Assembly: GCA_027490225.1 (NCBI GenBank)
Contig: JAIXYK010000003.1
Coordinates: 1 to 37,107, forward strand
Direction of reading: 5' to 3'
DNA length: 37,107 bases
Origin: Bacteroidota bacterium
GTDB lineage: Bacteria; Bacteroidota; Bacteroidia; M30B66
Positions 3,454-33,892 of this stretch are shown piece by piece. Below the pieces are notes generated by a model. It did no database searches, was not told the origin of the DNA, and worked only from the letters and a program-made list of their open reading frames with translations. Every line of letters begins with the position of its first letter. The first letter of the stretch is position 1. The translations under genes and the position numbers were made by a program.

Positions 3454-4116
3454 TTAAATTAAAGATTCTCCATTTAAATCTGTAGTTAACACCTCACTCA
3501 TATAATCGAAAAAAGGCCTCATTGCAAGGAAAGTTGCCATTACTTCTTTTCCAAAATCAGGAGATAAGATTTCTGTATCTTTAAATTTTCGCATTACAAC
3601 AAATTGCTTTTTCTTAATTAAATCGATGGCAGGATGATTTTTATCAAAACCCTTGGGTGCCGTTTTCACACCTTCGTCTCCTTGAAGTTCCCCAAAATAT
3701 TTTTTGAAAGTCTTGTTAGCAGTTATCTTTTCTAAAGTTGTAGTGTCCATTTCGAATTCTTTGCGAATGCGCAGTAAATCATTACTATTGGGCGACCAGA
3801 AACCTCCACCTACAAAGCTCTCATTAGGTTCTAAGTGAATGTAATATCCTCCGCGTAACATGGGTTTGGTGCGCGAAAAGCCACATCCAAAATTATTTTT
3901 ATAGGGCGATTTATCTTTTGAAAAACGTACATCCTTATAAATTCTAAAAATGTGAATGCCTTGTAAACTGTCGTGTTTTTGGAGTTGAGTATAAACCTGG
4001 TTGAAAAAGCTTTTATTTTCTTGCATAACATCATCGTGTATGTGTTTATGTTGCAAAAACCACTCACGGTTGTTATTTTCTTTCAATTGTTGTAGAAATT
4101 CAAATGCATTTTTCAT
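3454..4116 (-). CDS. DUF2461 (TIGR02453) family protein
   Basis: A 220-residue soluble protein. It shows the family's features in order: an N-terminal FLQQLKENNNREWF segment (residues 8-21), a central VRFSKDKSPYKNNFG motif, GGYYIHLEPNESFVGGGFW, and a C-terminal AMRPFFDYMSEVL helix. I choose ATG 4116 (MKNAFEFL), where family members normally begin; the frame stays open upstream to 4176. DUF2461 proteins are widespread in bacteria and fungi and have no established function. It converges on the exonuclease gene with a gap of about 32 bases. Confidence 0.88.
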   Translation of the reverse strand: MKNAFEFLQQLKENNNREWFLQHKHIHDDVMQENKSFFNQVYTQLQKHDSLQGIHIFRIYKDVRFSKDKSPYKNNFGCGFSRTKPMLRGGYYIHLEPNESFVGGGFWSPNSNDLLRIRKEFEMDTTTLEKITANKTFKKYFGELQGDEGVKTAPKGFDKNHPAIDLIKKKQFVVMRKFKDTEILSPDFGKEVMATFLAMRPFFDYMSEVLTTDLNGESLI

Positions 4117-4220
4117 AATGCGAAACAAGTAAAAATTTAGACGATGTTGGATTTTTGTTTCAAAAAAAGCATTCAAAATAATGGCGACTGCCGCTTCGTA
4201 CCTTGCTTCACCGCGTTTTT

Positions 4221-4248
4221 CTAGCCTCAGGCTAAAACCTGCGGCTAG
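4221..4248. repeat. REP-like palindromic hairpin
   Basis: CTAGCC-T-CAGG (4221-4231) and CCTG-C-GGCTAG (4238-4248) can pair in an 11-position stem with one mismatch and a six-base loop (CTAAAA). It sits between the DUF2461 start and the 3' end of the T9SS cargo gene, in DNA that is more GC-rich than its surroundings. There is no T-run after the stem on either strand, so a classical terminator is less likely than a palindromic intergenic repeat. Confidence 0.6.
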
Positions 4249-4257
4249 AGAAGAGGA

Positions 4258-5505
4258 TTACTCTTTCACAATCTTTTTTGTAATTGTTCCATTTATGGTT
4301 TCAAATTTAACCAAGTAAATACCAGGGCTCAATTTTTCAAGGTTTATAGCAGATTGAAATCTTTCTGAATAGATTGTCTGTCCTGTTATAGAAACAATTT
4401 GAATGATTGCGTTTTGGGAAGTTAAGGGTTCCCAATTTTTGAACTGCAATTCTGAAGACACCGGATTAGGATAACATTGAATTTTATTTTCCAAGTTTAT
4501 CAATTCATTCATTCCTACAGAAGAAAATTCTTGATTTACAATTATATATCCATTGTCGCCAACACCAAATACAACTGAGTCGCTGTGAGAAGAAAAATCA
4601 TTAATGGTTGTATCTACAGAGGTGTAATTCCAATTTACACCATCACCTATATTTTCGTAAACAAGTCCGCCAGATGAAGATGAGGGCTTTCCTCCAACAT
4701 ATATTTTATCATTGCCAGATTTATGTAGGGCAAAAAAATTGGGGTAGAAGAAAGTGGCTGAATTAATATCTTCTTGCCAAGAAAGTCCTCCATCTGTTGA
4801 AATGTACAGCCCGAAACCGGTATTTTCAGTTTCATAACTGGCATAACAGAGATTAGCATTTACAATTAATACATCCGTTAAAGGATTGGCACTAGCTGAA
4901 GTGGAAATTGTATCCCAATTTTCGCCTTGGTCTGTTGTGCGCAAGATATAACCACTTGTACTGGCAGCTAATCCAAAAATGTTAGGCAAAAAATCAAATC
5001 CAACAATTCTATTGCTAGAGTTCAAATTAGAAGCGTTTATTGTGGCTGTGCTCCATTGGTTAGCGTTTAACTTATTTATTATTTCACCACTAAAACAACC
5101 CGAGCCGCCAATAAATCCATTGTTCTCATCGGTAAAATACATGCCTTCATTGAAACAAGAAGATAAATCTTGTAAAGATGTCCAACTTGTTCCTCCGTCT
5201 GTTGTTTTGTAAACGTTAAATGTGCTTAGCGTAATAAATCCTACATTTTCTGTTACAAATTCTAAGGAAGTAATATCACCAATAGATGTGATACCTTGAG
5301 GAGTAATTGGGTTCCAGGTTTGTCCGCCATTGGTAGTTTTCAAAAGCGTGTTTTGATTTCCACCTATATAACCTATAGTTGGAGATGGAAAATCAATAGC
5401 ATTTAATTTGTTAGTGGTTCCAGACGTAACTGTAAACCAATTTTGCGCCATAGTTGTTGAGCCAATCAAAAATAAGGCAGCTGCAAGAATATCTTTCGTT
5501 TTCAT
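4258..5505 (-). CDS. Secreted Asp-box (BNR-like) repeat protein with T9SS type A sorting domain
   Basis: A 415-residue T9SS substrate. A signal peptide (MKTKDILAAALFLIGSTTMAQ) is followed by a beta-propeller-like region. The propeller region has repeated Asp-box motifs of the form T-x-D/N-x-G-x-x-W: TTNGGQTWNPI, TTDGGTSWTSL, TTDQGENWDTI and STDGGLSWQED. This pattern resembles the Ycf48/photosystem-stability-like propellers common in Bacteroidota exoproteins. The last 75 or so residues are a type A sorting domain with CYPNPVSSELQF, a GQTIYSE strand, LSPGIYLVKF and the ending TKKIVKE. It is predicted to be exported by Sec, then T9SS, and to be surface-anchored or released. Its ligand is unknown. 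The AraC-type regulator lies 67 bases upstream on the same strand. Confidence 0.87.
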   Translation of the reverse strand: MKTKDILAAALFLIGSTTMAQNWFTVTSGTTNKLNAIDFPSPTIGYIGGNQNTLLKTTNGGQTWNPITPQGITSIGDITSLEFVTENVGFITLSTFNVYKTTDGGTSWTSLQDLSSCFNEGMYFTDENNGFIGGSGCFSGEIINKLNANQWSTATINASNLNSSNRIVGFDFLPNIFGLAASTSGYILRTTDQGENWDTISTSASANPLTDVLIVNANLCYASYETENTGFGLYISTDGGLSWQEDINSATFFYPNFFALHKSGNDKIYVGGKPSSSSGGLVYENIGDGVNWNYTSVDTTINDFSSHSDSVVFGVGDNGYIIVNQEFSSVGMNELINLENKIQCYPNPVSSELQFKNWEPLTSQNAIIQIVSITGQTIYSERFQSAINLEKLSPGIYLVKFETINGTITKKIVKE

Positions 5506-12773: not shown

Positions 12774-13490
12774 ATGAAAAATATTAAATTAATTATTTGC
12801 AGTATAGCCTTATTAAGCTTACAATTAAATGCCCAAGAAAGTAAACGAAAATTTAGATTCGGGCTAAGAGTTGCTCCTCAAATAACTTGGATTAAAGCGG
12901 ATTATAAAAATATTCCACCAAATGAATCTTATGAAAATGGTGGAGTAAATGTTGGATTTTCATGGGGGCCACAAGCCGAAATTCAAATGAATGATCAATT
13001 TGCTATTCAAACTGGTGTGGATGTTAATTATAGTACAGGTAAAGTTAAAGGTACAATTACAACATTAAACACAGTGCAAACCTTGGATCAGGTTTATAAA
13101 ATGAGGTTTATTGAAATTCCATTTGGTATTAAAGCCAGAACAAAAGAAATTGGATACATGCGTTATTTTTTCAATATAGGATTGAGTGCTGGTTTCAGGT
13201 ACCGTGCTAATACAGAGTTTTCTACATCTGTAAACAATACCTCAAAAATTACAGTTTTAAGTTCTAATAGTAACGATTTTGTAAATCTATTCAGAGGTGC
13301 TTATTTCTTAGGTGGAGGAGTTGAATATTCAATAAGTGGAAATACAGCACTAGTTGGAGGAATTGTTTTTAATAACGGAATTACCAATTTATTGAAATCA
13401 CAAAATTCTACAAATGTTAGCAATCCTAATTTTGCTGATGAAAGAGCAATTTTAAATTATCTTCAGTTGAACATCGGCGTTTTGTTTTAA
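12774..13490 (+). CDS. Outer-membrane beta-barrel protein (PorT-like fold family)
   Basis: A 238-residue protein with a signal peptide (MKNIKLIICSIALLSLQLNAQ) followed by alternating amphipathic strands typical of a small eight-stranded outer-membrane barrel (FRFGLRVAPQITW, FAIQTGVDVNYSTGKVKG, GAYFLGGGVEYSISG), ending NYLQLNIGVLF with the terminal aromatic residue expected of a BamA substrate. It fits the outer-membrane beta-barrel family that includes PorT, but nothing specific identifies it as PorT itself. I use ATG 12774; a GTG at 12732 would put residues in front of the signal peptide. A terminator follows at 13510. The function is unknown beyond outer-membrane location. Confidence 0.82.
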   Translation: MKNIKLIICSIALLSLQLNAQESKRKFRFGLRVAPQITWIKADYKNIPPNESYENGGVNVGFSWGPQAEIQMNDQFAIQTGVDVNYSTGKVKGTITTLNTVQTLDQVYKMRFIEIPFGIKARTKEIGYMRYFFNIGLSAGFRYRANTEFSTSVNNTSKITVLSSNSNDFVNLFRGAYFLGGGVEYSISGNTALVGGIVFNNGITNLLKSQNSTNVSNPNFADERAILNYLQLNIGVLF

Positions 13491-13551: not shown

Positions 13552-15207
13552 ATGAAAATTGCACTTGCTCAAATTAATACACATATTGGAAACTTTGAAG
13601 CGAACAAATCAAAGATTATTTCTGCCATAAAAAGAGCAGAAAAAGATGGCGCTGACATCATTGTATTTCCTGAATTGAGCATTTGTGGTTATCCACCGCT
13701 CGACTTTTTAGAGTTTAATGATTTTATAAAAAGGTGCTTAATTGCAATCGATGAGATAGCACTTGAATGCAAAAATATTGCTGCAATAGTTGGAGGACCT
13801 AGTATAAATCCAAAAGTTGAAGGAAAAAACCTTTTTAATTCTGCATTTTTCATTTATGGCGGCGAAGTTAAAAGAGTTGTGCATAAAACACTTTTACCAA
13901 ATTATGATGTATTTGATGAATACCGCTATTTCGAGTCAAATGAAGATTTCCATTGCATCGAGTACAAAGGAGAAACCATCGCATTAACCATTTGTGAGGA
14001 CCTTTGGGACATTGATGATGATAAGATGTATGTAAAATGGCCCATGGATGAGCTGATAAAACAGCAGCCAACTGTTATGATAAATATTGCAGCTTCTCCT
14101 TTTTCTTACGCGCATGCAGAAAATCGCAAGCGGGTCTTACATCAAACAGCCAATAAATTTAATTTACCCATTTTTTACGTGAATCACGTTGGGGCACAAA
14201 CTGAATTGGTTTTCGATGGAGGTTCACTGGTAATGAATGCCAAAGGAAATGTGGTATGCGAATTAGCATATTTCGAAGAAGATTTTCGCGTTTTTGAATT
14301 AGATTGGGTAAAAACTGCTAAGAGCATTCCTTTTGAAATGAGTAATAACTTTGTGGGTGAAGACCTCTATATTTCAAGGATTCATTCAGCATTAATTTTA
14401 GGCATTAGAGATTATTTTGGAAAAATGGGGTTCACCAAAGCAATTTTGGGCTTAAGCGGAGGAATTGATTCTGCTGTTGTATTTGCGCTGGCGGCTGAGG
14501 CGCTGGGGAATGAAAATGTGTTGGGTATTTTAATGCCATCTCCTTATTCCAGTGAACATTCTATTGCTGATGCATTACAATTAGCCAAGCATCTAAATGC
14601 TGCCACTTCAACCATTCCTATTTCTCCTGCTTTTGAAGCGATAAAACATTCACTTTCGCCTGAGTTTGAAGGACTGGCTGAAGACTTAACCGAAGAAAAC
14701 ATGCAAGCCAGGATTCGCGGTGTTTTGTTAATGGCGATGAGCAATAAAAAAGGGTATATACTTTTAAATACTTCTAATAAAAGTGAAGCTGCCGTTGGTT
14801 ATGGAACTTTGTACGGTGATATGTGCGGTGGACTTTCTGTAATTGGAGATGTGTATAAAACACAAGTATATGCACTGGCAAATTATATAAACCGAGCAAA
14901 AGAAATTATACCTATTAATAGCATTATAAAACCACCAAGTGCGGAATTGAGGCCAGACCAGAAAGACAGCGATTCTCTGCCTGATTATGAAATTTTAGAT
15001 AAGGTGCTTTACAATTATATTGAACTAAAGAAAGGTCCTGAAGAAATAATAAACCAAGGTTTTGATAAAGCTTTGGTGAATCGTGTATTGAAAATGGTAA
15101 ATACTAATGAGTACAAGCGTTTTCAAACACCTCCAATGATTCGTGTTTCTACCAAAGCATTTGGCCTTGGGCGCAGAATGCCTTTGGTGGGGAAATATTT
15201 GTCTTAA
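13552..15207 (+). CDS. nadE: Glutamine-dependent NAD+ synthetase
   Basis: A 551-residue two-domain enzyme that makes NAD+ from deamido-NAD, ATP and glutamine in the cytoplasm. The N-terminal nitrilase-like amidase has the catalytic Glu41 (FPELSICGYPPLDF), Lys112 (HKTLLPNYDVFDEYRYF) and Cys148 (ICEDLW). The C-terminal synthetase has the ATP pyrophosphatase loop SGGIDS at 302-307 and SNKSEAAVGYGTLYGDMCGG. The length is normal for the fused bacterial form. The ATG at 13552 comes directly after the preceding terminator. nadE is near gldBC in some Flavobacterium genomes, and this window shows the same neighbourhood with the barrel gene in between. Confidence 0.97.
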   Translation: MKIALAQINTHIGNFEANKSKIISAIKRAEKDGADIIVFPELSICGYPPLDFLEFNDFIKRCLIAIDEIALECKNIAAIVGGPSINPKVEGKNLFNSAFFIYGGEVKRVVHKTLLPNYDVFDEYRYFESNEDFHCIEYKGETIALTICEDLWDIDDDKMYVKWPMDELIKQQPTVMINIAASPFSYAHAENRKRVLHQTANKFNLPIFYVNHVGAQTELVFDGGSLVMNAKGNVVCELAYFEEDFRVFELDWVKTAKSIPFEMSNNFVGEDLYISRIHSALILGIRDYFGKMGFTKAILGLSGGIDSAVVFALAAEALGNENVLGILMPSPYSSEHSIADALQLAKHLNAATSTIPISPAFEAIKHSLSPEFEGLAEDLTEENMQARIRGVLLMAMSNKKGYILLNTSNKSEAAVGYGTLYGDMCGGLSVIGDVYKTQVYALANYINRAKEIIPINSIIKPPSAELRPDQKDSDSLPDYEILDKVLYNYIELKKGPEEIINQGFDKALVNRVLKMVNTNEYKRFQTPPMIRVSTKAFGLGRRMPLVGKYLS

Positions 15208-15572
15208 AGCTTGCCTTTGGGCGTGTCCCTTCGGGCCGGTCTATTCGCTGCAAGTCCTCGCTCGTGCCTCGCTGTGGGCTTTTCGCTGCTATACCTCACG
15301 CGGGCATTCAAGAAAAAGTAGAAAGTTGGAGAGGGAAAAGTAGAAAGGAAAAAGGAAAAAGTTTTTTTAAAGTTTTGAGTTGTGAGTTGTGAGTCGGTTT
15401 GTTTTAATCTAAAAGCACGCAAAAAAGGTGATAAACCAACATAAATGAACTTTCACAAATTGTTTATAGAGCATCAATGCTACATGATGAAACCGAAGTG
15501 TTGCTGAACATGATGAAATAGCCGATAACACCATAGAGTGATTATCTATCCTATATGGAAAAAATAACTAGT
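15208..15572. other. 365-base gene-free stretch with repeat, simple repeats and a possible gene remnant
   Basis: Between nadE and the cargo gene. It holds the GC-rich repeat copy A (15215-15307), a purine-rich tract with AAAAGTAGAAAG at 15314 and 15336 (22-base period), a short GAGTTGT duplication near 15378, and a 26-codon open stretch at 15441-15521 that translates to coding-looking sequence but has no proper start. I see no RNA gene. Confidence 0.6.
15215..15307 (+). repeat. GC-rich dispersed intergenic repeat, copy A
   Basis: A GC-rich block in AT-rich surroundings. Its core (15253-15292) matches the reverse complement of 17293-17331 at about 31 of 40 positions: AGTCCTCGCTC, TCGCT, GGGCT and CTGCTAT are shared in the same order, and both copies have TTTGGGCG further out. 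The arrangement resembles intergenic repeats of other Bacteroidota genomes, as far as I recall. Confidence 0.65.
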
Positions 15573-17141
15573 TTACTTTTCATATAGGACACGGGCTTGG
15601 AATGCATTATTATTTGTGTCTATAATTTTGACTTGCAATATACCAGAAGGTAGGTTTTCTGATTTTAACGATAAATTAATTTCATGACTACTGCTAGACG
15701 CTTCATAAATTAGTTGCCCCATCATGTTAAAAATCTCTATTTTCCTCATGGGTTGGTATTCGAGGCTATTAGATAAATTAATGGTTAACCTGTCGCTGGT
15801 AGGATTAGGGTATGTATTGAGAGTTAGAGGAGAGCTTAGTTTTTCTATGCTGATTGTACCACATGAGTCAACCTGAATAAAATATGAAAACGTTAACAAA
15901 TCGCATAAGTTGCTACTTATACTTAATCTCACATCTTTTAAACCTTCTTGACTATATGTTAATTCATGCGGACCTAAACCTGAACCTGGAAAGGCTACAC
16001 CTCCATCGAAATCCCAATTGATTTCAAATGTATTTGTTGAATCGATAAAGCCAGTGAATGTTACTAAATTAGTTTCATCAACACAAACAGTTTCGTTAAC
16101 ACTAAATGCGGGGTTAAATGATTTGCGCTTAATGGTAACTGTATCTCTTAGCAAATAGTTTCTAAAACAAGGTATATCATAATTTACAGTTAGCACATAT
16201 TGTCTTTGTTGTTGGTTTTGTGAAGGTAGTGAAGCATTAATATTAGTTCCTGAAGAATTTATTACACCATTAATTGACCAATAATGTGAACTGTAGGTTG
16301 CATTTAAGTTAGGACCAATTAATTGAGGAGTATACCTCCATGCAACATTGTTCATCTCGACATTTGTTCCACTGTAACCATAAAAACTGCAAATGGGGCT
16401 TGTTTCGGAACACGGATTAGGTATAGGGCCACATACACCAGTTCTAAATGAATTGGCCCATTGATCACACGCTGGCTTATTTGCAATATGTACCTCAATT
16501 ATATTCGAAGTTTCTGATAATTGTATTTGAAAAGTTGCGTAGGAAGTGCAGCTAGCGTTAAAAAAAGGGATAGAATTATAAGACACAATTAACTTACGGT
16601 TGGGCGCATTACCAATGGTTTGATACCGAATTCTATTTCCAATATTTCCAGGATTAAAATCATTTAACACTCCCAGAATACCTGTATTGGGATACATATT
16701 CGAACATTTATTCGCATCCATTGTCTCAAGATCCATATTAAAGTAACCTGTAAGCGGCGCAATAAAGCCAATCCAACCATTTGCACTTATTCTAAACTCG
16801 GTGTAATTGGTTCCATAAAAATTGAAACTAAAACCAATGGGCAAAAAATCGCTATTTTGATCATCAGAAAGTATAACCGGTGTTCCTAAACCATCTTCTG
16901 TTCCAAAAGGTATATCGCTAATGTCATACCCAAAAAATCCATCCGAAAATTCTGTTAAAACTAAAACCGAATCAGCAAAATTTGCTGTTAATAAAACAGT
17001 TTCATTTACACAAAGCGCAGTATCATTACTTGGAGAAATATATACTGTTTGGGCATCATAAGAATCGAAAAGTCCTAAAAACAGGTAAAATACAATACAA
17101 TTACGTTTTATTAATGGTATATGAAATAGAAATTTATTCAT
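15573..17141 (-). CDS. Large secreted protein with T9SS type A sorting domain
   Basis: A 522-residue exported protein. Its signal peptide runs to about LFDSYDAQ. The middle region (about 75-280) carries FSFNFYGTNYTEFRISANGWIGF and FQIQLSETSNIIEVHIANK, the pattern of nidogen-like/GEVED-type modules in Bacteroidota exoproteins, with several cysteines that may form disulphides. A PKD-like segment follows (INWDFDGGVAFPGSGLG, about 375-430). The C-terminus is a type A sorting domain (YPNPTSDRLTINL, IFNMMGQLIYEASS, LPSGILQVKI, ending ARVLYEK). The gene stands alone, with repeat copies A and B on either side in opposite orientation. It is predicted to be a surface or secreted protein of unknown ligand. 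Confidence 0.84.
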   Translation of the reverse strand: MNKFLFHIPLIKRNCIVFYLFLGLFDSYDAQTVYISPSNDTALCVNETVLLTANFADSVLVLTEFSDGFFGYDISDIPFGTEDGLGTPVILSDDQNSDFLPIGFSFNFYGTNYTEFRISANGWIGFIAPLTGYFNMDLETMDANKCSNMYPNTGILGVLNDFNPGNIGNRIRYQTIGNAPNRKLIVSYNSIPFFNASCTSYATFQIQLSETSNIIEVHIANKPACDQWANSFRTGVCGPIPNPCSETSPICSFYGYSGTNVEMNNVAWRYTPQLIGPNLNATYSSHYWSINGVINSSGTNINASLPSQNQQQRQYVLTVNYDIPCFRNYLLRDTVTIKRKSFNPAFSVNETVCVDETNLVTFTGFIDSTNTFEINWDFDGGVAFPGSGLGPHELTYSQEGLKDVRLSISSNLCDLLTFSYFIQVDSCGTISIEKLSSPLTLNTYPNPTSDRLTINLSNSLEYQPMRKIEIFNMMGQLIYEASSSSHEINLSLKSENLPSGILQVKIIDTNNNAFQARVLYEK

Positions 17142-17424
17142 AAGTTGTTTTGATTTATGATATCACCTTAAACAAATATAGAAAAAAGATGCATTTTTCA
17201 CCCTGATGGGGTTATTAATTTTGCGCGGTCTAGCAACACCTGCAGCTAAATATATTTGCTTAGTAGAAAAATAAGATAATGCCGCGGCCCCGATAGCAGT
17301 GGCAGCCCGGAGCGACGCAGGAGCGAGGACTAAAACGGATAGCGGGCAAAGCCGCCCAAACCTTTTTAGGCTTCTTTATAATTTAATAAAAACTTAAATT
17401 CTATTAAGACTTTATGCAATCCGC
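17142..17424. other. Gene-free stretch containing repeat copy B
   Basis: 283 bases between the start of the cargo gene and the 3' end of the thioesterase gene. Apart from copy B (about 17281-17362) I see no gene, RNA or clear terminator. The part at 17142-17280 is AT-rich and may hold the cargo gene's promoter, but no -7 box is obvious. Confidence 0.5.
17281..17362 (-). repeat. GC-rich dispersed intergenic repeat, copy B
   Basis: An inverted-orientation relative of copy A. It contains GAGCGAGGACT at 17321-17331 and ATAGCAG at 17293-17299, the reverse complements of the copy A core ends, plus CGCCCAAA near 17353. It is strongly GC-rich compared with the genes around it. It has no coding potential that I can see. 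Confidence 0.65.
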
Positions 17425-17937
17425 TTAAATAAAAAGCGCCTTTAACTCAGTAGCGTCATTCGGATTCATTTTTCCGCCTAAAATAAGGCTCAATTGTTTC
17501 CTTCTTAATGCTCCTTCGAACCTAGATTTTTCAAGGTCTGTTTCGGGAATCAATTCAGGTACTGAAATAGGATTTCCCAATTGGTCAACTGCAACGAAAG
17601 TGTAAATGGCTTCGTTGTGTTTGGTTCTTACGCCTGTAGAATGATTTTCCACCCAAACATCAATAAACACTTCCATTGATGATGTAAAAGCCCTCGAAAC
17701 TTGGGCTTCTAAGGTTACAATATCACCTAATTTAATTGGCCTGTCGAAAGATACATTGTTAACAGAAGCAGTAACAACAATGCGTTTGCAATGTCTATGT
17801 GCTGAAATTGCTGCAGTAATATCCATCCAATGCAAAAGACGACCTCCCATTAAATTTCCAAGTGTATTGGTATCGTTGGGCAATACTATTTCCGATGACT
17901 CACAATGAGATTCCCGGGCAAATTTTTGAGTTTTCAT
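17425..17937 (-). CDS. Acyl-CoA thioesterase (hotdog fold)
   Basis: A 170-residue single hotdog-domain enzyme of the YciA/BACH type that hydrolyses acyl-CoA to free acid and CoA in the cytoplasm. It has the hallmark LPNDTNTLGNLMGGRLLHWMD (residues 19-39), with Asn24 and Asp39 in the usual catalytic positions, then RPIKLGDIVTLEA and WVENHSTGVRTKHNEAIYTFVAVD. The C-terminal tail (about 130-170) extends beyond the core fold. It starts 10 bases downstream of the gldH stop on the same strand, so it is probably the last gene of the holB-ricT-gldH series. The substrate chain length cannot be told from the sequence. Confidence 0.93.
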   Translation of the reverse strand: MKTQKFARESHCESSEIVLPNDTNTLGNLMGGRLLHWMDITAAISAHRHCKRIVVTASVNNVSFDRPIKLGDIVTLEAQVSRAFTSSMEVFIDVWVENHSTGVRTKHNEAIYTFVAVDQLGNPISVPELIPETDLEKSRFEGALRRKQLSLILGGKMNPNDATELKALFI

Positions 17938-24095: not shown

Positions 24096-25340
24096 CTACT
24101 CAATGAACTTCAAGTAACTTCCTTCGTTTAAACTAAATCGTCCGCCAATGCCGAGGTAGAAAGTACCTGTCAAAGGATGGTTTTGTTGTGTTGGAAACAA
24201 TCTGGCAAAATCTAGACGAAAGCCATAAACTCCAACACCAAGGCCTGCTGTAATAAATTTGCGGTTTCCTTTTAAAGCATGTTCGTTGAAATAACCAGCT
24301 CTAAATGCAATTAAAACCTTGTTTTCAGCCAAACTAAACCTGGCCTCTGAGCCAAACTGGTGAATAATTTCTCTGAGTTCTTCACGTAATCCATCTGGAG
24401 CATCATAAAAACTTTGTACTAATCCTCGAAATGGGTTTACATTAGGGTCAAGTCCTTCCGCAATTACAGGAGTTCCATTAGTTCCTATTGTATAAATTGG
24501 TGGGGTTGGTACTAACAGTTTATTGGCTTGGTAAGAAAAATCGAGTGCGATGTTATCGTTGTCGGCCTTTTTCCAATATAATGTGATTAAACTTCCTAGT
24601 TTTAAGGTTTGTGGAAGGAAGAATCCATTGGAAGTTTCGGTGTATCGCAATTTGCTGCCAATGTTCAATATGGAAAGACCTGCATTCCATTTCAAAGAGA
24701 ATTTGTCGCTCTCTTTAAAGATTTTTCGATAGCTTAAACCAAAATCTCCTGCAAAGACGGTGGGAATATTGGATGGTGTTCCTTGTATTGTTGTAGCATT
24801 AGTTAGATTAGAGCGAATATATTTTACTCCTGCACCTAGAGAAAAATTCTCTGATATTTCATAAGCATAATTTACATTAATAAAAAATTCATTTGGAATA
24901 AAAGTGCTTACAGTGTTTCCGACAATGTCTGTGAACAGAACTTCAGGAAGAATCAAATAGCGTGAAGAACTCCCAAAAGCGTGTCTTTTAAAAGAACGGT
25001 AAAAACTCGATTCCAGCAATCGAGGATGTGTCGTGATGCTTCTTAAATATGATGTATAATTTAAAAGCTGAAAACCTACAATATTTTCTTTAGAGGAAAG
25101 TAATGCAGGATTCTGATCAAGGCCATTTTGCAAATTTAATTCTGATGCCACAACACCTACCCCACCGGAGCCCATAGACTGGGGATTTGTATTAATTGAT
25201 AAAACCGGCGCTCCTGTGATAACTGTATTTATAACATTCGATGGATTGGGGCCAATAGAAATAAATTGTGCCTGCGCTGTATTAAATAATGTGATTAGTA
25301 AAACCCAAAATGCAATTCTTCTAGTGGCATTTTTTTTCAT
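24096..25340 (-). CDS. porV: Type IX secretion system outer-membrane protein PorV
   Basis: A 414-residue outer-membrane protein with a signal peptide (to about LFNTAQA) and a FadL-like beta-barrel. It shows PorV features: INTNPQSMGSGGVGVVAS near the N-terminus, VSTFIPNEFFINVNYAYEISENFSLGAGVKYIRSN in the middle, SYQANKLLVPTPP, and GNRKFITAGLGVGVYGFRLDFA before the end. PorV is the shuttle that brings T9SS substrates from the SprA translocon to the PorU sortase. It lies on the minus strand 2.4 kb from the PorV/Q-type gene and the sortase on the plus strand. The assignment rests on remembered family motifs. Confidence 0.83.
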   Translation of the reverse strand: MKKNATRRIAFWVLLITLFNTAQAQFISIGPNPSNVINTVITGAPVLSINTNPQSMGSGGVGVVASELNLQNGLDQNPALLSSKENIVGFQLLNYTSYLRSITTHPRLLESSFYRSFKRHAFGSSSRYLILPEVLFTDIVGNTVSTFIPNEFFINVNYAYEISENFSLGAGVKYIRSNLTNATTIQGTPSNIPTVFAGDFGLSYRKIFKESDKFSLKWNAGLSILNIGSKLRYTETSNGFFLPQTLKLGSLITLYWKKADNDNIALDFSYQANKLLVPTPPIYTIGTNGTPVIAEGLDPNVNPFRGLVQSFYDAPDGLREELREIIHQFGSEARFSLAENKVLIAFRAGYFNEHALKGNRKFITAGLGVGVYGFRLDFARLFPTQQNHPLTGTFYLGIGGRFSLNEGSYLKFIE

Positions 25341-28882: not shown

Positions 28883-31800
28883 ATGACAAAACGATTACTA
28901 CTTATTATAATTTCCATCTGTATTTTCCAATCATTTTCAAATGCGCAAACATTTGGAAACGAATGGATTTCATACGAACAGCAATACCACCGTATAAAAG
29001 TGTGGAACGATGGAATTTACCGAATTTCATGGTCAACACTCTTGGCAGCAGTGCCTGCAATCGCAACTGCTGACCCAAGAAATGTACAAATCTTCGGAAG
29101 AGGTGAAGAATTACCCATTCACCTAGAAGGCGAGGCTGATGGACAATGGAATGATGGAGATTATATAGAATTCTACGGAAGAAAAAACGATGGTTGGTTT
29201 GATAGGCAATTCTATGAAAGCAACAATGCACAAAGCAATCCTTACTATTCGTTGTTTACCGATACTGCTGTTTATTTTCTAACATGGAATAACTCAATTA
29301 CAAACAGGAGAGTAACAATTGAGACGGATCAAAATTTTACTGCTTATACAGCCGCTCCATATTTTATTCGTCAGGTTGTAAATCAAGTAACTTCTGATTA
29401 TTACTTCGGTAAAACAGATGCCAACAATTCAACAGAACCGGAATATACTTCTGGCGAAGGTTGGTCTGGACCAGTTTTCTCTGCTCCTTTACTCAATCAA
29501 ATTACTAGCTTGCCTTCTGGTAATTTTGTTGGAACAGGTCCTGCAGCAGAATTAAAAGTAGTGTATAAATCTATCTCTAATGCTGCCTGGTTTAACGACC
29601 ATCGCTACCAAGTGCAACTGGGCAATGGCGCAATTCTAGATTCTACTTTTGAAGGTCATGGCAGCCGCGTTTTCAATTTATCGTTGGCTTCATCTGCTTT
29701 AGGGGCAGCTACAACACCATTTAAATTCTCATATTTAGGGATTAACAATTCACTTAATCAGTTAGTTACGTCGAACAGTGTTTACAGTAATTACACTTGG
29801 AAATATCCTCATAATTTCAATCTTGAGAATCAAGGAACTTACAAAATGTTGCTTCCTGATAATGCTGCAAATACAAAGTACTTATTGAACATCACTAATT
29901 TTAACGCCGCAGCAAGTAATGTTTGGTTCTATGATTTAACGAATGGAAAAAGAATTCAAGCTACAAATCAGGCAGGTGTTTTTAAAGTGATTGTACCAAA
30001 TGGAAATGGTGCATTAAAAGAGTGCTTTATTGCTAATGAAACACAAATTACTTCTATTGGAGCAGCTAACATTCAACAAATAAATTATTTAGCTGGACAG
30101 CCCGGAAAATTCACCCCTATTCGTGATTTAAATAACATTAAATTTTTAATTGTAAGTCATCGTTCTCTTGCAACTGAAGCCGAAGCCTATAGAAATTACA
30201 GAAGTGGGAAATTTAGCACGGGTATTTTTTATATCGATGAACTTTACGACCAATTTGCACATGGTATAGCACAACACCCAATGGCAGTGCGCAATTTGGC
30301 ATATACTGCTTTATCATACTGGACAGAGAAACCAGAATATTTGTTGTTATTAGGAAAGTCTATCTCAGCACATTTCAACAGACAAGATGCTGAGCACTGG
30401 AACCAAAATTTAGTACCTACTTTTGGATTTCCTTCATCAGATGTAATGCTAACTGCTGGACTAAACGGCACATTTCCAGTAGAACCTGCCTTAGCAACGG
30501 GTAGAATTGCAGCAAAAAATGGCGCCGATGTAACTGCTTACCTCAACAAATTACAGGAATATGAAACGGCACCTCCGGCAATGTGGATGAAACAAGTGCT
30601 GCATTTTGGTGGAGGTCAAAGCCAGGGCGAACAACAAACGTATCTCAATTATCTCAACACTTATAAACAAACCATTGACAGTACACATTTCGGTGGTTCT
30701 GTTTACACGTATCAAAAAACTACATCTACGCCCATTGAGCAAACACAAAGTGCGTTAATTGCTGATTATATCAACAATGGTGTTTCCTTAATGACTTTTT
30801 TCGGTCACGCTACAGGTAGCGGTTTTGATGTGAGCATTGATAATCCTTCAGCTTATAACAATCAGGGGAAATATCCATTTTTAATTGGTAATTCCTGTTA
30901 TGCTGGCGATATTCACCAGCCACCTGGATTTGGATTTAGTCAAAGTGAAGAATTTATGCTCATTCCAAACAAGGGAACCATTGGTTATATTTCTTCTGTT
31001 TCTTTAGGAATACCAAGTCAATTGCATACGTATACCGATTCATTGTACAAGTTTTTTGGTCGTAAATACTATGGCGATCCAATGGGAATGAATATGAAAA
31101 GGGTTACGCGCGCTATTTATCAAAACGATCCACTTCGCAGGGCTGTAATTACAGAAACTACCTTGCATGGCGATCCTGGTGTAGTTATTAATAGTCAACC
31201 TAGTCCTGATTATAGTATTACTCAACAAAGTGTTTTTTACAACCCAACTGATGTAACTACCGAGGTAGATTCATTTGCTATGAATATTGTGATTGAAAAT
31301 ATTGGAATGGCTATAAATACTCCAGTAATTGTAGAAGTTACAAGAACATTTCCTGGTACAGGTTTAACCACAGTTTACTCTAAAGCCGTTCAAGGTTTAT
31401 TTTACAGAGATACATTAACTATTAAAATGCCTGTTTCCGACATCATTAAAGGTGGCGTAGGCATCAATTCATTTGTTGTAAAAGTGGATCCATTGAATTC
31501 AATTTCAGAGTTTAATGAGAATAACAATATTATTAATAGCACATTGCTGATTCGCTCTGCAGATGTATTACCTGTTTGGCCGTATGAATTTGCTTTAGTT
31601 CCTTCAAATACAATTACTTTAAAAGCTACTACTGGAGATCCTTTTGCTCCTGCTCGAAATTATATTTTCGAACTCGATACTACAGACTTGTTTAATAGTC
31701 CTTTCAAATTAACAACAACAATTAATCAGGCTGGAGGAGTTTTAAATTGGACACCGGCTATTGCACTTCAAGATAGCGGTGTGTATTTTTGGAGAGTTTC

Positions 31801-33892
31801 GCCTGACAGTATTGCTGGTGGAGGTTATAGCTGGAAAGAAAGCTCTTTTCAACACATTCAAGGCAAAAGAGGATGGTCTCAAGACCATTTTTTCCAGTAC
31901 AAAAAGAACAGATTCAACCAGTTAATTTACGACAGAACCACAAGGAAATTTGATTTTGTGCCAACAGCAAAAGAACTTTCTTGCTACGCTTATGGCTTTC
32001 CATGGGAGATAGATGAATTGTGGGGAACGTCTTATAAAATTGATGCAGAAGTTTGGGCAGATGCAGGCTGCAGCCTAGATCCTGCAGTGTATATTGCTGT
32101 AATTGATTCGGTTACATTGTTACCTTGGTTATCTCCTCAAAACTGCTGGGACCAAGGCAATCAGTTTGGACAATTCAACAGCAACTGTGCATGTAAAAGC
32201 GGAAACAGAATGGCGAATTTCGTTTTTCGTTCAGAAGGATATCCTGCTGAATTGGCTTCAATGCGCGATATGATTAACAATGTTCCTAATGGACATTACA
32301 TTTTAGCTTATACATGGATTTATGGAAACTATCAAAATTGGGATCCAAGTGTAATACAAGCTTTCCAAGATTTAGGTGCTGATAGTATTCAAACTTTACC
32401 AAATGAAGCGCCTTACGTGTTTTTTGTGAAAAAAGGTCATCCCGAAACTAAAGTTGAATTGATTGCAGATTCTGCAAATGCGAATCTTGTTTTGTCAGCA
32501 CCAATGTTCAATAGCTGGGTAAGTGGTGATATTACTTCAACGCTTATTGGGCCAGGTTCTGGTTGGGATACTTTGAGTTACAAGGTAAAAGGAGTAGACA
32601 ATGTTCACGACAGTATTCGTGTTCAGGTTATTGGTGTAAGAGCAAATGGTGTGGAAGATGTAATTGTTGATGCATTATCGCCTGCGGTTGGTGAAATGGA
32701 TTTGAATCCAGCTATAGGAACCACACAATACACTTATTTGAAGCTGAATGCATTTATGCGAGATGATTCATTGCGTTCGCCTGTGCAATTAGACCGTTGG
32801 CAAGTTACTTACGACCCAGTACCTGAATGTGCTTTAAATCCTTTGGCTGGATTGTATTTCTTTAAAGATACTTTACAACAAGGCGAAGAGTTGAAATTAG
32901 CAATTGCCATTCAAAATGTGAGCGAATTACCGATGGACAGTATGTTGGTATCATATTGGATTCAAGATGCGCAACGCAACATTTTTCCAATAACTTATTC
33001 AAGACAAAAGCCATTGGCTGCCGGAGAAATTTTATTTGATACCGTTTCGGTTTCTACATTACCATATTTAGGGTTGAATTCCATTTGGGTAGAAGCAAAT
33101 CCTAATTTCGATCAACCAGAACAGTATCGTTTTAACAATTTGGGAAGTCTTTCATTTTTTGTAACAAGCGATAATGTAAATCCTTTGTTAGATGTTACTT
33201 TCGACAATGTGCATATTTTGAATGGCGATATCATTTCTCCTAAACCAGAAATTGTAATTCAACTGGCCGATGAAAACCCTTATTTGGCTTTAGATGATAC
33301 AGCTTCTTTCCAACTTTATTTGAGAATGCCAGGAGAAACAAACGCTACACAGGTTTATTTTGATGGGAATGCTGCACTTCAGTTTATACCAGGTTCTACC
33401 TCAGCAAACAAAGCAAAGATTGAATATCGTCCAACATTTACCATAGACGGGAAGTATGATTTTATTGTGAAAGCAAAAGATAGGTCGAATAATAAAAGTG
33501 GTTCTGTTGAATACAAAATCTCCTTCGAAGTGGTAAATAAATCGACCATTACAAATATTTTAAATTATCCAAATCCATTTAGTACACGTACGCATTTTGT
33601 GTTCACCTTAACAGGTTCTGTTATTCCAGAAGAGTTCCGAATTCAAATTATGACCATTACGGGTAAAGTAGTAAAAGACATAAGAAGAGATGAATTGGGC
33701 CCAATAAGAATAGGAAGAAATGTTACAGAGTATTATTGGGATGGTACAGATGAATTTGGCGACCCACTTGGAAACGGAATTTATTTGTACCGTGTAATGA
33801 CTACTATTGATAAACAAGATATAGAACGCCGTGAAACTTCCGCCGACACTTATTTTGAAAGAGGTTTTGGGAAGATGTATTTGATGAGATAA
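28883..33892 (+). CDS. porU2: Type IX secretion system C25-family sortase, PorU2 type
   Basis: A 1669-residue surface cysteine protease with a signal peptide (MTKRLLLIIISICIFQSFSNAQ), an N-terminal beta-rich region, a gingipain/C25 peptidase domain (about 420-760), a CARDB/Ig-type middle and a FlgD-like C-terminal domain (about 1555-1650, YPNPF...YYWDGTDEFGDPLGNGIYLYRV). The catalytic dyad is His642 (FFGHATGSG) and Cys672 (GNSCYAGD). Classical PorU is nearer 1100-1300 residues, so this is the longer form often annotated as PorU2. It would cleave the C-terminal signals of T9SS cargo at the cell surface. It is directly downstream of the PorV/Q-family gene and ends at a hairpin terminator. Confidence 0.88.
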   Translation: MTKRLLLIIISICIFQSFSNAQTFGNEWISYEQQYHRIKVWNDGIYRISWSTLLAAVPAIATADPRNVQIFGRGEELPIHLEGEADGQWNDGDYIEFYGRKNDGWFDRQFYESNNAQSNPYYSLFTDTAVYFLTWNNSITNRRVTIETDQNFTAYTAAPYFIRQVVNQVTSDYYFGKTDANNSTEPEYTSGEGWSGPVFSAPLLNQITSLPSGNFVGTGPAAELKVVYKSISNAAWFNDHRYQVQLGNGAILDSTFEGHGSRVFNLSLASSALGAATTPFKFSYLGINNSLNQLVTSNSVYSNYTWKYPHNFNLENQGTYKMLLPDNAANTKYLLNITNFNAAASNVWFYDLTNGKRIQATNQAGVFKVIVPNGNGALKECFIANETQITSIGAANIQQINYLAGQPGKFTPIRDLNNIKFLIVSHRSLATEAEAYRNYRSGKFSTGIFYIDELYDQFAHGIAQHPMAVRNLAYTALSYWTEKPEYLLLLGKSISAHFNRQDAEHWNQNLVPTFGFPSSDVMLTAGLNGTFPVEPALATGRIAAKNGADVTAYLNKLQEYETAPPAMWMKQVLHFGGGQSQGEQQTYLNYLNTYKQTIDSTHFGGSVYTYQKTTSTPIEQTQSALIADYINNGVSLMTFFGHATGSGFDVSIDNPSAYNNQGKYPFLIGNSCYAGDIHQPPGFGFSQSEEFMLIPNKGTIGYISSVSLGIPSQLHTYTDSLYKFFGRKYYGDPMGMNMKRVTRAIYQNDPLRRAVITETTLHGDPGVVINSQPSPDYSITQQSVFYNPTDVTTEVDSFAMNIVIENIGMAINTPVIVEVTRTFPGTGLTTVYSKAVQGLFYRDTLTIKMPVSDIIKGGVGINSFVVKVDPLNSISEFNENNNIINSTLLIRSADVLPVWPYEFALVPSNTITLKATTGDPFAPARNYIFELDTTDLFNSPFKLTTTINQAGGVLNWTPAIALQDSGVYFWRVSPDSIAGGGYSWKESSFQHIQGKRGWSQDHFFQYKKNRFNQLIYDRTTRKFDFVPTAKELSCYAYGFPWEIDELWGTSYKIDAEVWADAGCSLDPAVYIAVIDSVTLLPWLSPQNCWDQGNQFGQFNSNCACKSGNRMANFVFRSEGYPAELASMRDMINNVPNGHYILAYTWIYGNYQNWDPSVIQAFQDLGADSIQTLPNEAPYVFFVKKGHPETKVELIADSANANLVLSAPMFNSWVSGDITSTLIGPGSGWDTLSYKVKGVDNVHDSIRVQVIGVRANGVEDVIVDALSPAVGEMDLNPAIGTTQYTYLKLNAFMRDDSLRSPVQLDRWQVTYDPVPECALNPLAGLYFFKDTLQQGEELKLAIAIQNVSELPMDSMLVSYWIQDAQRNIFPITYSRQKPLAAGEILFDTVSVSTLPYLGLNSIWVEANPNFDQPEQYRFNNLGSLSFFVTSDNVNPLLDVTFDNVHILNGDIISPKPEIVIQLADENPYLALDDTASFQLYLRMPGETNATQVYFDGNAALQFIPGSTSANKAKIEYRPTFTIDGKYDFIVKAKDRSNNKSGSVEYKISFEVVNKSTITNILNYPNPFSTRTHFVFTLTGSVIPEEFRIQIMTITGKVVKDIRRDELGPIRIGRNVTEYYWDGTDEFGDPLGNGIYLYRVMTTIDKQDIERRETSADTYFERGFGKMYLMR

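Follow-up and report, generated by a model that had tools for sequence, protein, structure and literature searches.

A gene for a surface protein in the 37,107-nt window (the whole stretch of DNA that was analysed) is bracketed by two inverted copies of an intergenic repeat, and this bracket is very probably a coincidence: two separately placed copies of the common Flavo-1 repeat would flank a gene that is independent of both. One copy (A) would have been placed at the 3′ end of nadE and the other (B) at the 3′ end of a thioesterase gene, and the gene between them would neither move nor flip with them. The initial annotation had offered chance placement of a common intergenic repeat beside inversion and acquisition as a cassette. 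Of these, chance placement is upheld by the number of copies in the genome, the low identity between A and B and the filled and empty sites found at nadE junctions, and a tempting phase-variation lead is closed. The filled and empty junctions also provide a concrete case for treating Flavo-1 as an inserting DNA repeat, which bears on the annotation of Flavo-1 matches across Bacteroidota.

Two copies of a dispersed repeat family

A repeat search of the window paired 15253-15280 with 17304-17331 as inverted arms of 28 nt, 86% complementary and with 2023 nt between them, in agreement with the positions first given for the inverted copies (Table 1). The repeat is real and inverted as the initial annotation had it, but it spans about 110 nt rather than 40 nt, as judged from full-length matches to R1, a covariance model built from 31 of the copies in this genome, A and B included. 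The claim that a single gene, encoding a surface protein of the type IX secretion cargo type, lies between the copies holds as well. Past copy B the gene order is the 4HBT thioesterase gene and then GldH.

Table 1. Features in and around the bracket, with positions in the window.
Feature	Position	Strand	Description	Evidence
nadE	13552..15207	+	NAD synthase with carbon-nitrogen hydrolase domain	PF02540, E 4e-73; PF00795
Copy A	15205..15321	+	Flavo-1-type dispersed element directly 3′ of nadE	R1 covariance model, 89.1 bits
Surface-protein gene	15573..17141	-	522 aa, surface or secreted, C-terminal type IX sorting domain	Por_Secre_tail, PF18962, E 5.4e-11
TATATTTG	17173..17180	-	Fits -7 motif TAnnTTTG; begins 39 nt upstream of start codon	Pattern match
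Copy B	17264..17371	-	Flavo-1-type element between thioesterase 3′ end and surface-protein gene 5′ end	R1 covariance model, 72.7 bits
4HBT thioesterase gene	17425..17937	-		PF03061, E 3e-18

On sequence and model score, copies A and B are members of Flavo-1, a dispersed, imperfectly palindromic family of about 110 nt that occupies intergenic gaps. The similarity between them is not a matter of chance, because both belong to a family of many copies. With R1, at least about 64 places were found at E≤1e-5 in the 3.77-Mb genome, a rough count that rests on 150 of 538 candidates scored. Rfam catalogues Flavo-1 RNA as RF01705 (Weinberg 2010, PMC2864571) and gives it the type sRNA, with unknown function. 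Copy B matches the Rfam model directly at 17282-17353 (+) with 30.7 bits, short of the gathering score of 42 (E 7e-4 for the stretch searched). Copy A gave no match to RF01705 at E≤1; the strand of copy A that would match the model is the - strand. Elsewhere in the genome eight other copies reach the gathering cut-off. At E≤1 RF01705 gives 31 matches here, the weakest of which are uncertain, as the model at this threshold also matches five control genomes, none above the cut-off.

In the 31-copy alignment, 96.3% of the cells in the stem are paired and all seven pairs (7/7) carry double changes. There are 65 double-change cells as against a mean of 21 in shuffled alignments, with no shuffle as high, although the consensus structure was derived from the same alignment used for testing and therefore leans toward pairing. 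Folded singly under DNA parameters, copies A and B do not outperform shuffles. The elements thus resemble Flavo-1 of Rfam in sequence and stem pattern; they differ in that A and B lie below the cut-off, and in that the family here is dispersed, occurs in either orientation and has empty as well as filled sites.

A and B are not closely alike. Their identity of 62% ranks 147th of 435 pairs among the 30 best copies, where the median is 59%, and their longest exact run, AGTCCTCGCTC, is 11 nt long, whereas the most alike copies in the genome share 53 nt. The closest relatives of copy B are C64:5961 (82%), C64:92250 and C62:88661 (both 79%), and those of copy A are C52:68224 and C23:83884 (both 74%). 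On these comparisons, A and B are no matched pair and belong to different subfamilies. The number of close neighbours in the genome is also about that of random placement (2.2 pairs expected within 2.06 kb for 64 copies).

Filled and empty sites at the nadE junction

Copy A's slot was compared in seven relatives from the same family, none of them of the same genus. In all seven, nadE and the same TonB-receptor gene are convergent, and the receptors are 64-97% identical among them. The junction is empty in G001, G002 and G005, where the stop-to-stop gap is 3, 0 and 0 bp, respectively. In G007, G006, G008 and G003 the gap is 118, 114, 90 and 84 bp, and the entire gap is a Flavo-1-type element in the orientation of copy A. 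These elements score 29.9 (G007), 39.5 (G006), 19.5 (G008) and 24.3 bits (G003) with R1, and those of G003 and G008 are degenerate and weakly scored. The comparison of presence and absence in relatives that had been proposed for the surface-protein gene gave no homologue of it beside nadE in the stretches fetched, nor was the thioesterase gene found there. The latter sits elsewhere in the relatives, with no Flavo-1-type element beside it in the bases read. Because four relatives carry an element of A's kind after nadE where there is no such gene, the element 3′ of nadE is independent of the surface-protein gene. Copies A and B would have separate insertion histories.

Between close relatives the junction elements differ in a patterned way. 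In G006 and G007, whose receptor proteins are 97% identical, the elements have different central parts but conserved outer arms, between conserved neighbouring genes. In G003 and G008 (receptors 95% identical) the central hairpin is replaced, again between conserved outer arms and neighbouring genes. It is as if the central hairpin were exchanged whole.

The copy number of Flavo-1 varies between relatives. Given this variation, the filled and empty sites, the presence of alike copies at different places and the occurrence of both orientations, we infer that Flavo-1 acts here in the manner of a palindromic, inserting DNA repeat. Its most likely mode of spread would be in trans, a DNA-processing enzyme copying the element, which forms hairpins. 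A comparable case is that of the REP/BIME elements with TnpA-REP (RAYT), reviewed in PMC6006769. Like these, Flavo-1 is dispersed, intergenic and palindromic, has many divergent copies per genome and often lies near gene 3′ ends. It differs in being about three times longer and in having two hairpin regions, and a resident partner transposase is at most a candidate.

A Y1 transposase is a doubtful candidate for the partner of Flavo-1. The sole Y1 transposase gene detected in this genome, at C62:89062 (positions 3780-4500 of locus L082, equal to C62:88780-89500), has a copy of the B subfamily about 310 bp away, which made it look promising. This gene, however, is flanked by ACCCCGAAGGGGT-type palindromes of its own, and its motifs resemble subclass 1.2 of PMC6006769. 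Across genomes a Flavo-1 copy lies within about 350 bp of 4 of 24 Y1 loci, of which about three are independent, G003 and G008 representing one shared locus. Moreover, no Y1 matches were found in the Flavo-1-bearing genomes G006, G007, G017 and G023.

Placement relative to genes and a possible RNA role

Of the best copies in this genome, 29 have called genes to either side. In 23 of them the closest gene end is a 3′ end, and 19 of the 23 share the strand of that gene. As nadE and the thioesterase gene converge, and copies near 3′ ends are mostly on the strand of the gene, the inverted arrangement of A and B would follow from their neighbours. This rule was noticed post hoc. It is weaker among the next 20 copies (3′ end in 9 of 20, same strand in 6 of 9) and fails in other genomes; in G050, 8 of 8 copies in co-directional gaps lie the opposite way. 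A general 3′-end and same-strand rule was dropped, since only this genome's best copies follow it. In Flavobacterium psychrophilum, Flavo-1 matches were reported in sense or antisense without distinction (PMC9723704), and the mixed orientation seen across genomes agrees with that report.

Preference for 3′ ends could also arise if the Flavo-1 copies served nadE and the thioesterase gene as functional 3′-untranslated RNA elements or as terminators. The strongly covarying stem (96% paired, 65 double-change cells vs 21 in shuffles) speaks for such a role, as does the 3′-end preference among the best copies. Nevertheless, it is unlikely: orientation to genes is mixed across genomes, F. psychrophilum included (PMC9723704), empty sites are tolerated at the nadE junction, A and B as single copies fold like shuffles with DNA parameters, and no T-run regularly follows the element in the sequences inspected.

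Inward-facing pairs and the surface-protein gene

By the initial annotation, many evenly spread copies at ordinary gene ends, together with a lack of inverted reads, would make the flanking a coincidence. This is borne out in part: many copies do lie at gene ends (a 3′ end is nearest for 23 of the 29 best), but close pairs in this genome share an inward bias. By our tally, 9 of 10 pairs of neighbours no more than 10 kb apart at E≤1e-5 (on C3, C10, C18, C26, C27, C29, C47, C52 and C64) are turned inward, against an expected quarter, and so are 12 of 13 within 5 kb when weak matches are included. Several of the other close pairs face inward though every gene there runs one way, so the 3′-end and strand rule cannot cover every pair. 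No such bias shows in G029 and G017, where a second model gave 4 of 13, and in our own reading of the matches inward pairs number 3 of 4 in G006 and 0 of 3 in G008. The bias was noticed post hoc.

The inward brackets contain ParE-type toxin genes (C18, C30), type IX cargo (C42, C64) and an ABC transporter pair (C29), and three hold no gene. At L434 7347-7824 (C18) and L427 3078-3547 (C30), a ParE-type toxin gene and a small upstream neighbour lie between two Flavo-1-type matches, the ParE-type match at C18 being just below the Pfam cut-off. These may possibly be toxin-antitoxin pairs. Such contents could be taken to mean that, in this lineage, inward Flavo-1 pairs are boundaries for the gain of accessory genes (surface proteins, toxin-antitoxin pairs, transporters), and that the element is itself a mobile palindrome that swaps its central hairpin as a unit; we consider this very unlikely.

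Equally doubtful is the more specific proposal of the initial annotation that the gene and both flanking elements arrived as one unit, an acquired cassette with the elements as its ends. It would account for the lack of the gene beside nadE in the relatives' stretches examined and for the toxin, type IX cargo and transporter genes that other close pairs bracket, all facing inward. The ends of this supposed cassette, however, come from different subfamilies, and A's slot is filled by an element of its kind in four relatives without the gene. In addition, three brackets are empty, the number of close pairs is about that of chance, and the inward bias is missing in G029 and G017 (4 of 13).

In known invertible surface-gene loci of Bacteroidota, precise repeats are acted on by a dedicated recombinase and a promoter is switched. 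The bracket likewise has a surface-protein gene within inverted repeats, but neither precise repeats nor a switched promoter is seen here, nor a recombinase among the 16 window ORFs scanned. The consensus of the Bacteroidota -7 element is TAnnTTTG, and TATATTTG, which fits it, lies inside the bracket between copy B and the gene start; it is probably the promoter of the surface-protein gene. In that position it would travel with the gene in any A-B inversion. The suggestion that the gene is inverted by A-B recombination and thereby turned on and off (phase variation) is therefore almost certainly wrong, despite the inverted arms around a surface-protein gene: the arms are 62% identical with a longest exact run of 11 nt, far from long near-identical repeats, no site-specific recombinase family was found among the 16 window ORFs scanned with Pfam, and the probable promoter is inside the bracket. 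A search of the literature on Bacteroidota repeats and on phase variation of type IX cargo found nothing usable.

A single-protein scan of named genomes confirmed no relatives of the surface-protein gene, and the closest homologue found is a 1469-aa reading frame in the same genome (C52:77728-78969, 49% over residues 15-424). Its GC content (34% vs 36% for the window) is uninformative. A second inverted pair, at 13162-13185 and 15545-15568 of the window (24 nt, 92% complementary), has its first arm within coding sequence and is probably due to chance. Type IX secretion genes are also found near the cargo gene: 24096-25340 and 28883-33892 of the window encode PorV and a 1669-aa C25 peptidase, which we read as being of the PorU type. 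With PorV and a C25-peptidase protein of this type present, a gene for type IX cargo is in keeping with its surroundings in the window.
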